Positions 34,989 through 41,202 of a stretch of DNA of 45,281 nucleotides are shown here, in pieces. Below the pieces are notes generated by a model. That model had not been told where the DNA came from, searched no databases, and saw only the letters and a program-made list of their open reading frames with translations. The stretch is from an uncultured Neomegalonema sp. (GTDB lineage: Bacteria; Pseudomonadota; Alphaproteobacteria; Rhodobacterales; Rhodobacteraceae), in assembly GCA_937922185.1 (NCBI GenBank), contig CAKZUT010000124.1, forward strand, positions 1 through 45,281, given 5' to 3'. Positions within the stretch are counted from its first letter, which is position 1. Each line of letters begins with the position of its first letter. Both the position numbers and the translations under genes were made by a program.

Positions 34989-36191
34989 TTAAACGGGCGG
35001 CTGTCGCTTTTTTTGCGCGATGGCGGTCAGAACACCGCGCGCGGCCCTCGTTGAGGGCGGCGCGCCCGTATCCCCGAAGGTCGCGAAGGCTTCCTCGAAG
35101 GCGGCGTGCTGATCGGTGCTGTCCTCAAGGACCGCCATGAGAGCATCCGCCAGCCTCGGGCCGGTGCAGCGTTCCTGAAGCAATTCGGGAATCGCCTTGC
35201 GACCGACCATGAGATTGACCAGCGTGAAGCTGCGGACATTCACCAGACGCCGGACCAGCCATTCCGAACTCTTGCGAACGCGATAGCCGACGATCATCGG
35301 TGTCCCCATGGCCGCGACTTCCAGCGCCACGGTGCCCGACGCGACAAGGGCGAGGTCGGCGGCCCCGAACGCCGCGAATTTACGGTGCTCGGCCTCCTCC
35401 GCCGACATGCCCCCCGCCCGCATCAGATGGACCGGAACATCCCAGCCGGAGACCGTCCGCTCCACCCGATCCGCCACGCCCTCGGCCACCGGCACGATAA
35501 CCTGCAAGCCGGGAAGGCGCTGCGACAGCAGCAGCGCCGCCTCGCCGAAAGGGTCCAGCAATCGCGAAATCTCGCTCTGCCTGCTGCCCGGTGCGACCAG
35601 CAGGACCGGCGCATCGGGCGCGATCCCCAGCGTGTCCCGCAAGGCACGGGGGGCATCATCCGCGAGCGAGGCCACCCGCTCGACAACCGGATGCCCCACA
35701 TAATCCGCTTCCAGCCCCACCCGCTCGAAATAGGGCGGCTCGAAGGGCAGCAGCGTCAGCATCCGATCATAGATCCTCGCCGCCTTCGCCGCCCGCCACG
35801 GCTTCCATGCCCAGACGGTCGGAGCGACATACTGCACGAGTGCCGTGTCCGGGGCCGCGCGCTTTGCCCGCCTCGCAAGCATGGCCGAAAAGACCTGCGC
35901 GTCGATAGTGACCAACGCATCGGGCCGCGTTGCCGCCACGGCGGCGGTCGCCTGCCGCATCCGCCGCATGATGCGCGGGATATGCGGCACCACCTCGGCA
36001 AAGCCCATGACCGAGATATCCGCCGTCGGGAACAGCACATCCAGCCCCTCGCCCCGCATGGCCGGGCCACCGACGCCCGAAAACCGGATCGGGCCATCGG
36101 TTTCAGCCCGCAGCGCCCGCATAAGCGCGGCCCCCAGCCGGTCACCGGAACTTTCTCCGGCAACGATCATGATGTGAGGAGCGTCGGTCAT
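34989..36191 (-). CDS. lpxB: Lipid-A-disaccharide synthase
   Basis: MTDAPHIMIVAGESSGDRLGAALMRAL, GVGGPAMRGEGL, YVAPTVWAWKPWRAAK, VGHPVVERV; start overlaps the lpxI stop. Confidence 0.95.
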   Translation of the reverse strand: MTDAPHIMIVAGESSGDRLGAALMRALRAETDGPIRFSGVGGPAMRGEGLDVLFPTADISVMGFAEVVPHIPRIMRRMRQATAAVAATRPDALVTIDAQVFSAMLARRAKRAAPDTALVQYVAPTVWAWKPWRAAKAARIYDRMLTLLPFEPPYFERVGLEADYVGHPVVERVASLADDAPRALRDTLGIAPDAPVLLVAPGSRQSEISRLLDPFGEAALLLSQRLPGLQVIVPVAEGVADRVERTVSGWDVPVHLMRAGGMSAEEAEHRKFAAFGAADLALVASGTVALEVAAMGTPMIVGYRVRKSSEWLVRRLVNVRSFTLVNLMVGRKAIPELLQERCTGPRLADALMAVLEDSTDQHAAFEEAFATFGDTGAPPSTRAARGVLTAIAQKKRQPPV

Positions 36192-37021
36192 GGCTCGAAC
36201 CCGAAAAGAAAGAGGCCGCTCTGATCGGCCAGATCGACGGTGCGCGGCGCATCGAGAACGAATACGCCGCCCGCTTCGACCGCAATCCCCGACAACCCCG
36301 CCTTCGCCGCCGCACGGATGGTATCGGGGCCGATAGCGGGGCGGTCCACGCGAAAATCCTGACCCCGCTTCGGCATTTTCACCAGAACGCCCCCCCTCTC
36401 GTCCCCGGCGCGCAGGGCCGCCACCCGGTCCAGCATCGCCGCTGTGCCCTCCGCCGCCTCCACCGCGAGGCACCGTCCGCCCGCCACCACGACCGCCTGT
36501 CCGATATCGAACGGGCCGAGCGCGTCGAGGATCGCCCGTCCCGTCGCGATGCCGTCCTCCTCGCACAGGGTTCCAGCCAGAACGCCACTGCCCGCGACAC
36601 TGCGAGGGAGAAAGGCTTCGGCTCCGATGACCGGAAAGCCGTGTTCCTCGAACAGATCGGCGACCCCGGAGAGCAACCCGTCATCGCCCCGCCCGAACAG
36701 CCGCGCAACCCTCGGCAGCAGGGCCAGCCCCTGCCGGTCGAACCGAACCTTCGTGAGCGAGGGACGGGTCAGCCCCCCCGCCATCGTCACCGCGTCACAG
36801 CCCTCGCGTTCCAGCAGGGCCAGCACCCGACCGACCTGCCCCAGCGATACCCGCTCGTTCGGAAAGGACGATGCCCATTGCGCCGCCGCACCTTCCAGAT
36901 CGACAATGAAGACCGGCTTGCCCTCGGCACGCCGCGCCTCGGCCACCTCCTCCGGTAATCGCCCGGTCCCCGCGAGGATGCCGAGCTTGCGGACCGATGG
37001 TTCCTCAGCTTTCAGGGACAC
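36188..37021 (-). CDS. lpxI: UDP-2,3-diacylglucosamine diphosphatase LpxI (DUF1009), probable GTG start
   Basis: KLGILAGTGRLPEEVAEARRAEGKPVFIVDLEG...VTMAGGLTRPSL...VKMPKRGQDFRVDRPAIGPDTIRAAAKAGLSGIAVEAGGVFVLD; between lpxA and lpxB. Confidence 0.9.
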   Translation of the reverse strand: MSLKAEEPSVRKLGILAGTGRLPEEVAEARRAEGKPVFIVDLEGAAAQWASSFPNERVSLGQVGRVLALLEREGCDAVTMAGGLTRPSLTKVRFDRQGLALLPRVARLFGRGDDGLLSGVADLFEEHGFPVIGAEAFLPRSVAGSGVLAGTLCEEDGIATGRAILDALGPFDIGQAVVVAGGRCLAVEAAEGTAAMLDRVAALRAGDERGGVLVKMPKRGQDFRVDRPAIGPDTIRAAAKAGLSGIAVEAGGVFVLDAPRTVDLADQSGLFLFGFEP

Positions 37022-37811
37022 AGAACCGGCGGCTGCCACCCGCGAGGATGAAATCGACCATTTCGCGGGCGGCCCCGTCTCCTTCCAGTCCGGCGGCCAC
37101 CGCACTTGCGCGCTCATGCAACGATCCGTCCTCATCGAGGAACACGGCCTTATAGGCCGCGCGCAGGGCGTGAATCTGGGGCCGGTCAAAGCCGCGCCGC
37201 TTCATACCGACCATATTCAGGCCCGCCAGATGCGCGCGGTTGCCGATCACCGAGCCATAGGGGATCACGTCGCGCTCCACGCCGGTCATACCGCCGACCA
37301 TCGCATGAGCACCGATTCTCGCGAACTGATGAATGCCGCAAAATCCGCCCAGAACCGCGAAATCACCGACCTCCACATGCCCCGCCAGCGTGGCATTGTT
37401 CGCGGCAATGACATTCGAGCCGACATGACAGTCATGGGCGACATGGGAACCGACCATGAAGAGGCAGTTATCGCCGACTCGCGTGACGGCGCCTCCCCCC
37501 TCGGTGCCGGGGTTCATCGTCACATTCTCGCGGATCTTGACATTCTCGCCGATTTCCAGCGTCGAGCGTTCGCCCCTGAACTTGAGATCCTGCGGGGCCG
37601 TCCCGAGCGATGCGAAGGGAAAGACTTCCGTGCCCCGCCCGATCACGGTCTGCCCCGTCACGACCACATGCGATCCGATACGGACCCCTTCCGACAGCCG
37701 AACCTCCGGCCCGATAACGGCATAGGGGCCGATCTGGACCTTGTCGCCGATGACGGCCCCGTCCTCGACAATAGCCGAGGCATGGATTTGCGCGGTTTCA
37801 GCTATCGCCAT
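37005..37811 (-). CDS. lpxA: Acyl-ACP--UDP-N-acetylglucosamine O-acyltransferase
   Basis: Left-handed beta-helix hexapeptide repeats: IHASAIVEDGAVIGDKVQIGPYAVIGPEVRLSEGVRIGSHVVVTGQT... Confidence 0.96.
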   Translation of the reverse strand: MAIAETAQIHASAIVEDGAVIGDKVQIGPYAVIGPEVRLSEGVRIGSHVVVTGQTVIGRGTEVFPFASLGTAPQDLKFRGERSTLEIGENVKIRENVTMNPGTEGGGAVTRVGDNCLFMVGSHVAHDCHVGSNVIAANNATLAGHVEVGDFAVLGGFCGIHQFARIGAHAMVGGMTGVERDVIPYGSVIGNRAHLAGLNMVGMKRRGFDRPQIHALRAAYKAVFLDEDGSLHERASAVAAGLEGDGAAREMVDFILAGGSRRFCVPES

Positions 37812-37842
37812 TCTGGTTTCCGTTCGGTTCCTGGTAGAGCGA

Positions 37843-38298
37843 TCACGCGGGATCGACGATCATCGCGCTGAACTCGCTTTCGGCACAGACGCGATCACCG
37901 ACCATCCCCCGGCCAGTAAAACGCCACACATTGCCCTTGTTCCGCTGGACCACGACATGCAGTTCCAGCACGTCTCCCGGCACGACGGGCGCGCGGAACC
38001 GTGTCTTATCGACGGTCATGAAATAGACGAGCATCCCCTTGTCGATCATATCGAGCGTCTCGACGACCATGACCGCCGCCGTCTGCGCCATCGCCTCGAC
38101 GATGAGAACGCCGGGCATGATCGGCCTGCCGGGGAAGTGGCCCGCGAAATGCGGCTCGTTCGCCGTGACGTTCTTCACGCCCACGGCGGATTTGCCCTTT
38201 TCGATATCGCGCACCTTGTCAATCATGAGAAAAGGCGCGCGGTGCGGAATCATCCGCATGATCCGCTCCAGATCGGCGGCTCCGTGGCTCTCGGTCAT
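37843..38298 (-). CDS. fabZ: 3-hydroxyacyl-ACP dehydratase FabZ
   Basis: RIMRMIPHRAPFLMIDKV, VTANEPHFAGHFPGRPIMPGVLIVEAMAQTAAV. Confidence 0.96.
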   Translation of the reverse strand: MTESHGAADLERIMRMIPHRAPFLMIDKVRDIEKGKSAVGVKNVTANEPHFAGHFPGRPIMPGVLIVEAMAQTAAVMVVETLDMIDKGMLVYFMTVDKTRFRAPVVPGDVLELHVVVQRNKGNVWRFTGRGMVGDRVCAESEFSAMIVDPA

Positions 38299-38369
38299 GC
38301 GATACTCCGGGATATCCGTACGATGCCCCTCCTTTGCCCCGGAAGCGAAGGACGGGTCAAGCACCGCTC

Positions 38370-38750
38370 CTACGAATATCGCGAGAAGCCGTGCATCCTG
38401 AGCGCCCATTGCAGCGCGATCACGAATCCTTTCGCAAAAGGCAGGATCAGCAGGGACAGGACCAGCACGAGGCCGGGCCATAATGTCATATGAACCCAGT
38501 CGGGCCAGTTATATCCCGTCGCGGTGGTCAGCATCAGCGGCACGACGATATGTCCCACGATCAGGATCGTCATCCAGGTCGGCATGTCGTCTGCCCGGTG
38601 ATGATGGAATTCAAGCTCACAGGTCTCACAGGCTTCCCTGACGCTCAGATAGCCGCTGAACAGCGCACTGTCGCCGCAACGCGGACATTTACGCGCAAGC
38701 CCCTTCAACAGCACGGGAACAAGTTTCCGTTCGGAATGATCGGCTGACAT
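38370..38750 (-). CDS. DUF983 family membrane protein
   Basis: KGLARKCPRCGDSALFSGYLSVREACETCELEFHHHRADDMPTWMTILIVGHIVVP: CPxC...CxxC zinc-ribbon-like head then TM segments. Confidence 0.85.
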   Translation of the reverse strand: MSADHSERKLVPVLLKGLARKCPRCGDSALFSGYLSVREACETCELEFHHHRADDMPTWMTILIVGHIVVPLMLTTATGYNWPDWVHMTLWPGLVLVLSLLILPFAKGFVIALQWALRMHGFSRYS

Positions 38751-38934
38751 CGTTGTTCCCCCGTGCAATCGGCACGCCCCGTCTGTACCGCGCCGGGACG
38801 GGATCGAGAAAGCGCCGGAATGCCCTTGCGTCGTCATGTCACCCGGCTTCGGAAATGTTTCCTATGAAAACGACGGAAACCCGCATCGGGCGCGTATTAC
38901 TCCCCAGAACACGGGATCAATGGAGGCGGACGCC

Positions 38935-39495
38935 ATGAGACGAACGGCTGGTTTCCTCGGTTGCATGGCATCGCTGGCGATGCTTGTTGCCGGAAATGCG
39001 TTTGCAGAACAGCGCGGTAGCGAAAACCGCCTTACGAAGCTGTTCGAGCAGATCGACCTCGATGCCAGTGGTACGCTGACCGTGCGGGAAATGCGCGACG
39101 CCGCCGCCGCGCGCTTCAATGCGCTCGATCTCAACGGCGATGGCCGGGTCACGGCGGATGAAAGACACCAGAGCCGCAACAACCGCCTGAAAATCCGCTT
39201 CAGCCGCGCGGATGCCGACCATAACGGGATGCTGGATCTCCACGAGATGCAGGAAGTGGCGAAACAACGCGCCCGCCGACGCCTCGCACGGCTTGACATG
39301 AACGGTGACGGGATGCTCTCGCTGGACGAATTGCAGAAGGGACGGCACAGTAACAGCCCTCTGGCCGGTTCCGAACCGGAAACGCTGACCTTGCCGATGC
39401 TGGACGCGCGGATGATGACGATGTTCCGAAACGCGGATGCGGATGGTGACGGGATCGTCACCCTGCGCGAAGCGATGGACGGAGCGGGCGGATGA
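38935..39495 (+). CDS. Exported EF-hand (calcium-binding) protein with five EF loops
   Basis: Signal peptide MRRTAGFLGCMASLAMLVAGNAFA; loops DLDASGTLTVRE, DLNGDGRVTADE, DADHNGMLDLHE, DMNGDGMLSLDE, DADGDGIVTLRE. Confidence 0.9.
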   Translation: MRRTAGFLGCMASLAMLVAGNAFAEQRGSENRLTKLFEQIDLDASGTLTVREMRDAAAARFNALDLNGDGRVTADERHQSRNNRLKIRFSRADADHNGMLDLHEMQEVAKQRARRRLARLDMNGDGMLSLDELQKGRHSNSPLAGSEPETLTLPMLDARMMTMFRNADADGDGIVTLREAMDGAGG

Positions 39496-40160
39496 GCACC
39501 GGTATCATGACAGAACCGGTTGCCGGATTCGGCAAAGGCTGGATACGACGCCGACAGGGGGGCGCAACCATGGTCGAGACGGCGGATGCCGCCTCCATAG
39601 GGACGGACGCGGATGACGATGACGCGCTGATCGTGCGCTTCGCCGCCGGGGACCAGTCCGCCGCGCGCCTGCTGACCGAGCGTCATCTGGGCCGGGTGCT
39701 TGCCCTCGCCACACGGATGCTGCGTGACACGGCGGAAGCCGAGGACGTGGCGCAGGAGGCGATGATGCGCGCCTGGCGCAACGCCGCCAAATGGGAGCCG
39801 GGGCGGGCAAAATTCTCGACCTGGCTTCACAAGGTTGCGCTGAACCTTTGCTATGATCGTCTGCGGAAACGCAAATCCGCCTCGCTGGACGATGTGGCGG
39901 AGCCGGTAGACGACCGGGCATCGGCCCAGGACGGGCTGGAGGCGGACGAGCGCCTGACGGTACTCAAAGGCGCGATCGCCGCCTTGCCGGAGCGCCAGCG
40001 CGCGGCGATCCAGCTGCGCCACTTCGAAGAGCGCGGCAATGACGAGACAGCGGAAATTCTCGGCGTGAGCGTCGAGGCGGTCGAATCTCTTTTATCAAGG
40101 GGACGCCGGGCATTGCGTGACAAACTCGCGGGACAGCGGGCATTGTTGCTGGAAGAATGA
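39492..40160 (+). CDS. RNA polymerase ECF-type sigma factor
   Basis: Sigma2: LATRMLRDTAEAEDVAQEAMMRAWRNAAKWEPGRAKFSTWLHKVALNLCYDRLRKRK; Sigma4: ALPERQRAAIQLRHFEERGNDETAEILGVSVEAVESLLSRGRRALR. Internal ATG at 39570 possible. Confidence 0.9.
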   Translation: MSTGIMTEPVAGFGKGWIRRRQGGATMVETADAASIGTDADDDDALIVRFAAGDQSAARLLTERHLGRVLALATRMLRDTAEAEDVAQEAMMRAWRNAAKWEPGRAKFSTWLHKVALNLCYDRLRKRKSASLDDVAEPVDDRASAQDGLEADERLTVLKGAIAALPERQRAAIQLRHFEERGNDETAEILGVSVEAVESLLSRGRRALRDKLAGQRALLLEE

Positions 40161-40678
40161 TGGTGATGGATATGATTTCCACGATGACGACAGACGAATT
40201 CGAGGAACGCGCCATGGCATACGGTGCGCGGATCGATGGCTGGCCGGAAGAAGACCGGGCACCGGCCCGCGCCCTGCTGGCCGAGTCGGCTGTGGCGCGC
40301 GAGATGCTGGAAGAGGCGGCATCGCTCGATGCGATGCTTGATCTCTGGGAAGGCCCGCAGCCGTCCAATGCCCTGCTGGGTCGGGTTCTGTCCGACGCGG
40401 CGCTGGTCGCGGGGGAAGCACGGGCGCCAGTCCCGACCCCGGCTCCGGCCCGCGAAGGATGGCTTTCGCGGTTGTTCGGGAACACGCCGGTCTTCAGGCC
40501 GGGCATGGCCCTCGCGGCCTGCCTCGCGCTCGGCTTCGTAATGGGCACCGCGATCGAGGACAGCGTGATCGCCCCGTCTTCCTCCGCCGGGGCGGCGCAG
40601 GAAATCGGCGTGATCGACTTCGCCTTCGCAATGGAGGATGATAGCGATCTGCTGCTCGGTCCAGAGGCCCTTCTATGA
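40157..40678 (+). CDS. Single-TM protein, probable anti-sigma factor
   Basis: Overlaps the sigma gene stop; cytosolic N-terminus, one TM (PGMALAACLALGFVMGTAI), short periplasmic tail; assigned by position and topology. Confidence 0.6.
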   Translation: MMVMDMISTMTTDEFEERAMAYGARIDGWPEEDRAPARALLAESAVAREMLEEAASLDAMLDLWEGPQPSNALLGRVLSDAALVAGEARAPVPTPAPAREGWLSRLFGNTPVFRPGMALAACLALGFVMGTAIEDSVIAPSSSAGAAQEIGVIDFAFAMEDDSDLLLGPEALL

Positions 40679-41202
40679 CGGATACCGCGTCCTCTCCCCG
40701 ACGTTCATGGCTCAAGCCCGCCCTTCTGGTGTCGCTGGCCCTGAATCTGTTCCTTGTCGGTCTGATCGGCGGTCAGGTGCTGTCCGAACCCGACGAGACG
40801 GTGAAGCGGGCGCAGGCATCGCGGGGCTATTCCCTGCATCCCCGCACGATGATGGAGGCTTTGCCCGAGGACCGGCATGACGATATCCGCGCCTACTGGG
40901 CCGAGGCCCACAAGGGCATGGGTCAGGAATGGCGCAAGATCAACACGATCCGGCGCGAGGTCGATGCCGCCCTGCGCGCCCGCCCGTTCGACGCCACAGC
41001 CCTGCGCGAGGCACAGCGGCGCGAGGTGGAGGCCAGGGCGGCCCTGCGCTTGAGGCAGAATGACGATATCGCCGGATTTCTGGAAACACTGAGCGACGAG
41101 GACCGCAAAGCCGTCGCCGATCTTGCCCTTGCAAGGCTGGACAAGCAGACCGCGTACTGGCGCGAACGTGCCAGAAAGCGCCGGGAAGCCGAGAAACAAT
41201 AG
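40675..41202 (+). CDS. Periplasmic heavy-metal-sensor-like protein (CnrX/CpxP/Spy-type)
   Basis: N-terminal TM anchor, helical charged domain (HPRTMMEALPEDRHDDIRAYWAEAHKGMGQEWRKINTIRREVDAALRARPFDATALREAQRREVEARAALR); 4-bp overlap with the previous gene. Confidence 0.65.
   Translation: MTDTASSPRRSWLKPALLVSLALNLFLVGLIGGQVLSEPDETVKRAQASRGYSLHPRTMMEALPEDRHDDIRAYWAEAHKGMGQEWRKINTIRREVDAALRARPFDATALREAQRREVEARAALRLRQNDDIAGFLETLSDEDRKAVADLALARLDKQTAYWRERARKRREAEKQ

Follow-up and report, generated by a model that had tools for sequence, protein, structure and literature searches.

The closest described case to the locus reported here is the cabp-sigV pair of Caulobacter vibrioides (CCNA_02838-CCNA_02837), an EF-hand gene and an ECF sigma gene published in May 2026 (PMC13171946). 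The cabp promoter, whose start has been mapped, reads GGAAA-13 nt-CGTTCA and needs SigV for its activity, and sigV has a separate, intragenic promoter. Calcium limitation and acid induce both genes, CaBP overproduction raises sigV, and under EGTA the cabp promoter behaves alike in the wild type and in a cabp mutant. The study names neither an anti-sigma factor nor a sensor, and leaves the membrane link as a question mark. Few circuits of bacterial periplasmic Ca2+ signalling have been defined. Another relative is the RpoE8 operon of Azospirillum brasilense (AMK58_RS24945-24955), which was found as a target of RpoE6 (PMC12826043). Here we lay out a whole candidate circuit, comprising promoter, sigma factor, anti-sigma-like protein, sensor and putative Ca2+-binding product, together with a predicted regulon open to testing in common laboratory alphaproteobacteria.

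The locus lies in a 45,281-nucleotide stretch of DNA from an uncultured Neomegalonema sp. (hereafter the window). Positions 38935-41202 hold four open reading frames where the first-pass annotation had placed them, and Pfam matches to EF-hand, Sigma70_r2/r4 and Metal_resist domains bear out the identities it gave the genes. All four are on the + strand, in the order exported EF-hand protein, ECF sigma factor, anti-sigma-like protein and PF13801 sensor:

38870-38896, + strand: predicted ECF-type promoter ACGACGGAA-N14-CGTA, with the -35 element at 38870-38878 and the -10 element at 38893-38896, matching the family consensus
38935-39495, + strand: exported EF-hand protein, 186 aa, with a signal-peptide-like N-terminus and five canonical EF loops (EF-hand_5, 2.6e-25)
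39055-39471, + strand: the five EF loops, DLDASGTLTVRE (39055-39090), DLNGDGRVTADE (39127-39162), DADHNGMLDLHE (39211-39246), DMNGDGMLSLDE (39295-39330) and DADGDGIVTLRE (39436-39471)
39570-40160, + strand: ECF sigma factor, ~196 aa from 39570 (Sigma70_r2, 1.8e-23; r4_2, 5e-15)
40157-40678, + strand: anti-sigma-like protein, 173 aa, with an N-terminal four-helix domain, one transmembrane (TM) helix with GxxxG and a periplasmic tail
40493-40552, + strand: predicted anti-sigma-like TM helix (residues 113-132), containing Gly126 and Gly130 (structure prediction and hydropathy)
40675-41202, + strand: TM-anchored periplasmic sensor, PF13801 Metal_resist, with the CnrX/NccX/Spy/CpxP fold
40711-40782, + strand: sensor TM helix (residues 13-36), which contains Ser20 and the invariant Asn24

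The cassette is flanked by a DUF983 gene and a response-regulator diguanylate cyclase gene. The DUF983 gene, divergent from the cassette, is the last of a - strand stretch (34989-38837) with lpxB-, lpxA- and FabA/FabZ-like genes, for which the Pfam check covered the FabA and DUF983 domains only. Other in-frame starts for the EF-hand gene lie at 38836 and 38920, and a sigma-70 promoter scan of the cassette region found nothing. A 4-bp overlap had been claimed for every junction. The DNA does have an ATGA at each of the three, and the overlaps of sigma with anti-sigma (40157) and of anti-sigma with sensor (40675) are plausible; the one at 39492, from which the sigma reading frame is open, is probably not the true sigma start, judging by the starts of relatives. 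Many relatives have just 10-14 codons ahead of the conserved sigma residue D43, so the start is better placed at the ATG at 39570, before which stands AGGGGGG, and the resulting gap of ~74 nt to the EF-hand gene is similar to that in relatives. The cassette is a single tight operon, probably with two overlaps instead of three.

Conservation was surveyed in 61 genomes of the same family, which were searched with the sensor and their flanks then read; a later profile search added 11 four-gene genomes. The sampled genome set held one genome per species, and EF-hand genes were counted by loop pattern, with at least two loops. The full cassette, as the first-pass annotation had anticipated, is conserved across the family and occurs in at least 47 of the 61 genomes. 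The sigma gene stands upstream of the sensor gene in 38 of 39 family loci, and of the 38 family cassettes whose upstream stretch can be seen, 36 have an exported EF-hand gene directly ahead of sigma. With just 0-3 matches to the window's EF-hand protein per comparable genome, this adjacency is beyond chance. Lack of co-conservation between the EF-hand and sigma genes, which that annotation had named as grounds for abandoning its proposal, is thus not what we see within the family.

Across the class, 110 of 240 sampled genomes have a PF13801 match. Among the 90 class loci read, 83 have the sigma gene upstream of the sensor gene and 76 a recognisable anti-sigma-like gene as well, whereas the EF-hand gene is present in 24 and absent from 32 of the 56 class loci with at least 500 nt visible upstream. 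At the level of gene content, therefore, the sigma/anti-sigma/sensor trio forms a stable core that the EF-hand gene often accompanies but that can do without it. The sigma tree requires at least six changes of the EF-hand label, and the window's clade contains 38 members with an EF-hand gene and 2 without. In a family with holdfast (HfaA; that of G064), the trio is kept and no EF-hand gene adjoins it in the loci read (L210-L229). Two further loci (L360 in genome G059 and L283 in G045) have sensor-like genes and no recognisable sigma gene in the stretch examined, and these are possibly decayed or rearranged cassettes.

An unbiased count of spaced tetramers found GCGACGGAA-N14-CGTTTGA to be common to the upstream regions of EF-hand genes. 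In most cassettes of the family the shorter form, GCGACGGAA-N14-CGTT, lies at ~-70 to -127 relative to the EF-hand start; the window's promoter is one base off the consensus CGTT in its -10 element. Searched strictly, the motif has 87 sites in the 61 genomes, against 22 for a reversed control. All 87 fall in genomes with a sensor match, 54 in number, and the 7 that lack one have no site; in this tally G030, with one weak match (23.6 bits in a 510-aa frame), is counted as sensor-absent and G045 as sensor-present by a profile match beside the motif site, not by PF13801. Given the 22 matches of the control, some motif sites inside other reading frames are expected to be chance. Motif sites revealed cassettes in four genomes (G003, G012, G013 and G060) whose sensors a single-sequence search had missed, and two others (G006 and G031) were noticed first by their motif targets and then shown to hold cassettes. 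In Caulobacter sigV has its intragenic promoter, whereas a search of the 3'-terminal parts of 70 EF-hand genes here found no copy of the motif. The module's own sigma is the presumed reader of the motif, a role that another ECF sigma could also fill.

The shared promoter motif predicts further genes under the switch, including efflux pumps and the heat-shock regulator RpoH. It lies upstream of an RND periplasmic adaptor gene in nine genera (L273, L292, L295, L296, L298, L307, L316, L317 and L318), of RpoH in five (L262, L280, L297, L300 and L320), of a second exported EF-hand protein in five (L286, L289, L302, L313 and L319) and of cytochrome b561 in three (L272, L278 and L285), and there is one case each of a ferric-reductase-like and a MacA-like gene. 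In L295, the sole RND operon followed further, an AcrB-type pump gene comes after the adaptor. The first-pass annotation had remarked that no efflux pump is adjacent; this holds at the cassette, with no metal-efflux genes beside it, but the predicted regulon takes in the RND adaptor genes. In the window's own genome a two-mismatch search returned background levels (165 sites against 151), and only three sites are convincing: that at 38870, C102:7780 and C112:1607. The second is a perfect motif (L250/L264) before an exported Tyr/Thr/Pro-rich protein of 259 aa (L250:1640-2419), which matches no Pfam family and is adjoined by an hrcA-like gene; a homologue of it also sits behind the motif in a genome of the same genus (G054, L290). 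The third, with one mismatch, precedes a second exported five-loop EF-hand protein (L331:1587-2210).

The loops of the window's EF-hand protein begin at protein positions 41, 65, 93, 121 and 168, comprise 12 residues each and are canonical at positions 1, 3, 5, 6 and 12. Pro at position 2, typical of lanmodulin, is absent in all five, and the first-pass annotation's link between the exported protein and calcium is borne out to this extent; by its loops the protein would be expected to bind Ca2+. Lanmodulin itself was considered as an identity and rejected, as the protein scores 57.6 bits against an NCBIfam cut-off of 135 and no loop has Pro2.

The sigma factor matches the Pfam models of Sigma70 regions 2 and 4 only, which marks it as ECF type, and it exceeds the equivalog cut-off of NCBIfam NF004113 (PRK05602; 233 bits against 208). 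The anti-sigma-like protein has no significant match to a sequence family or fold: it belongs to no Pfam family, falls far under the cut-off of the NCBIfam anti-sigma model (17.4 bits against 100) and has as its best fold match the anti-sigma factor RslA, at a weak E of 3.7. Its N-terminal four-helix domain is confidently predicted, and presumably binds the sigma. Gly126 is kept in 111 and Gly130 in 112 of 113 anti-sigma-like rows, which were recruited by profile and are to that extent biased.

The fourth protein meets PF13801 at 68.5 bits (curated cut-off 29.2), and its AlphaFold model, a CnrX-like helical hairpin, has a mean pLDDT of 90.3. In a fold search the best matches were NccX and CnrX (TM-score by target up to 0.76, probability 1.00, E-values above 0.1), and its sequence profile finds NccX (1.4e-06), Spy, CnrX and CpxP, in agreement with the CnrX/CpxP-like fold that had been proposed for it. 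Among 121 sensors, Ser20 (118/121) and Asn24 (121/121), both in the TM helix, and Arg144 (119/121) are conserved, whereas no His or Cys column is: the best His column reaches 24%, and there is no Cys column. This contrast favours a sensor that has ceased to read a transition metal and instead communicates with the anti-sigma-like protein via the membrane; the TM helices of the two proteins would be expected to pair.

It is moderately probable that the four genes form one autoregulated envelope-stress sigma operon, with the EF-hand protein mainly an output and feedback possible. At rest, the cytoplasmic helical domain of the anti-sigma-like protein would tether the sigma factor to the inner membrane, with the CnrX/Spy-fold sensor anchored beside it and the two membrane helices packed, GxxxG against Ser20/Asn24. 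A periplasmic change would act on the sensor, which appears to have lost the CnrX metal site, and the sigma would be released; the cue would most likely be envelope damage, misfolded protein or a disturbed divalent-cation balance. Freed sigma would then read GCGACGGAA-N14-CGTT promoters, that of its own operon first, giving the periplasmic EF-hand protein as the first product and thereafter further EF-hand proteins, the RND efflux pump, RpoH and b-type cytochromes, in a set that differs by genus. The EF-hand protein would bind or buffer Ca2+ where the envelope is under stress, and may act back on the switch, as the rise of sigV on CaBP overproduction suggests.

A calcium-gated switch would assign the EF-hand protein a different place: loaded with Ca2+, it would dock on the pair of sensor and anti-sigma-like protein and hold the sigma off, and loss of Ca2+ would free the sigma. 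Such gating draws on the tight co-conservation of the EF-hand gene within the family, on its five canonical loops, and on the responses of cabp and sigV to calcium limitation, acid and CaBP overproduction in Caulobacter (PMC13171946). However, many trios have no EF-hand gene adjoining (Azospirillum RpoE8, the 32 class loci and the HfaA family), which argues that the switch works without the protein; the EF-hand genes of the cassettes, and paralogues elsewhere, carry the module's own promoter, as outputs would; and the Caulobacter wild type equals the cabp mutant at the cabp promoter under EGTA. We consider calcium gating unlikely. Similarly doubtful is that the EF-hand protein reports Ca2+, or the state of Ca2+-bridged lipopolysaccharide, to a CnrX-fold sensor without its metal site and, by way of the anti-sigma-like protein, sets the pump, RpoH, the cytochromes and further Ca2+-binding proteins; if true, this would supply the membrane link left open in the CaBP-SigV model. 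Because trios without the gene are common, and the motif stands at its own promoter and at those of other EF-hand genes, we regard the EF-hand protein as mainly an output and less likely the sensor that the first-pass annotation had allowed for.

Two further explanations appear improbable to about the same degree. One is a heavy-metal sensor of the CnrYXH kind, responding to Ni, Co or Cu, in which a transition metal would bind to the fourth protein and the sigma would switch on metal efflux. The fold and profile matches to CnrX/NccX and the motif at RND adaptor genes are consistent with it, yet the pump is known as AcrB-type only, metal subtype aside, the 121 sensors share no His/Cys column, and metal-efflux genes do not adjoin. 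Additionally, eight Cnr-order sigmas, defined by a sensor gene before the sigma gene, group in a single clade (100/100 support) to which the window's sigma does not belong (the original CnrH is not in the tree), and the cassette lacks the sensor-before-sigma order of the Novosphingobium copper cluster. In the other explanation, the EF-hand gene is a mere neighbour sharing the promoter, serving for example Ca2+ storage or outer-membrane support, with no role in signalling or stress. The repeated gains or losses that the sigma tree forces on the EF-hand label would suit this, but its recurrence over many families and the promoter at other EF-hand genes point to a shared physiological theme. We retain the autoregulated envelope-stress operon as our working model.

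CpxP and Spy, both soluble, are linked to a two-component system. The cassette shares with them a periplasmic helical fold and a putative role in envelope stress, but its sensor is membrane-anchored and encoded next to a sigma/anti-sigma pair. CnrYXH and NccYXH of Cupriavidus metallidurans likewise combine a sigma factor, a membrane anti-sigma factor and a TM-anchored sensor of like fold; the cassette differs from them in gene order, in having no conserved metal ligands, in its extra EF-hand gene and, so far as Cnr-order relatives represent theirs, in sigma clade. On sensor residues and sigma clade we reject membership in CnrYXH, and with gene order these also count against the kinship to Cnr that the first reading of the locus had drawn. 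On plasmid p3 of Novosphingobium sp. ES2-1 (L167), a hypothetical gene, a sensor gene and a sigma gene are flanked by copC/copD on one side and a multicopper oxidase/CopB pair on the other, and this cluster is probably a copper-responsive CnrYXH relative on a conjugative plasmid.

The Azospirillum brasilense RpoE8 operon has the order of the trio, with sigma, hypothetical and 'periplasmic heavy metal sensor' genes that all match the cassette profiles; unlike the window, it has no EF-hand gene alongside. Alphaproteobacterial genes with this label are mostly found in this sigma module, and their products have no conserved metal ligands. The named plasmid loci came from a search with the sigma, whereas a plasmid search with the sensor gave no hits. 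Phaeobacter sp. G2 has the same four genes on plasmid CP104104.1 with the same flanks, DUF983 on one side and diguanylate cyclase, DUF3572 and HAD hydrolase genes on the other; cassette and chromosomal-looking neighbours thus reside on a 120-kb plasmid (unnamed4, L166). For this locus we found annotation in the deposited record only and no functional study.

The module had been put forward as undescribed. Our literature search, limited to open-access papers, turned up no account of the four-gene cassette, although its EF-hand/sigma pair is already published as cabp-sigV (PMC13171946). As in the window, the ECF sigma gene of the Caulobacter pair has an exported multi-EF-hand gene immediately ahead of it; CaBP has three loops against five here. 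The promoter geometry, GGAA-N14-CGTT, is also shared, the window's ACGACGGAA-N14-CGTA departing from it by one base of the -10 element, and C. vibrioides holds a PF13801 protein. The cassette and cabp-sigV are likely the same system. If so, the anatomy of the cassette would explain the missing membrane link, and its anti-sigma-like protein and sensor are concrete candidates for the membrane component absent from the 2026 Caulobacter study.
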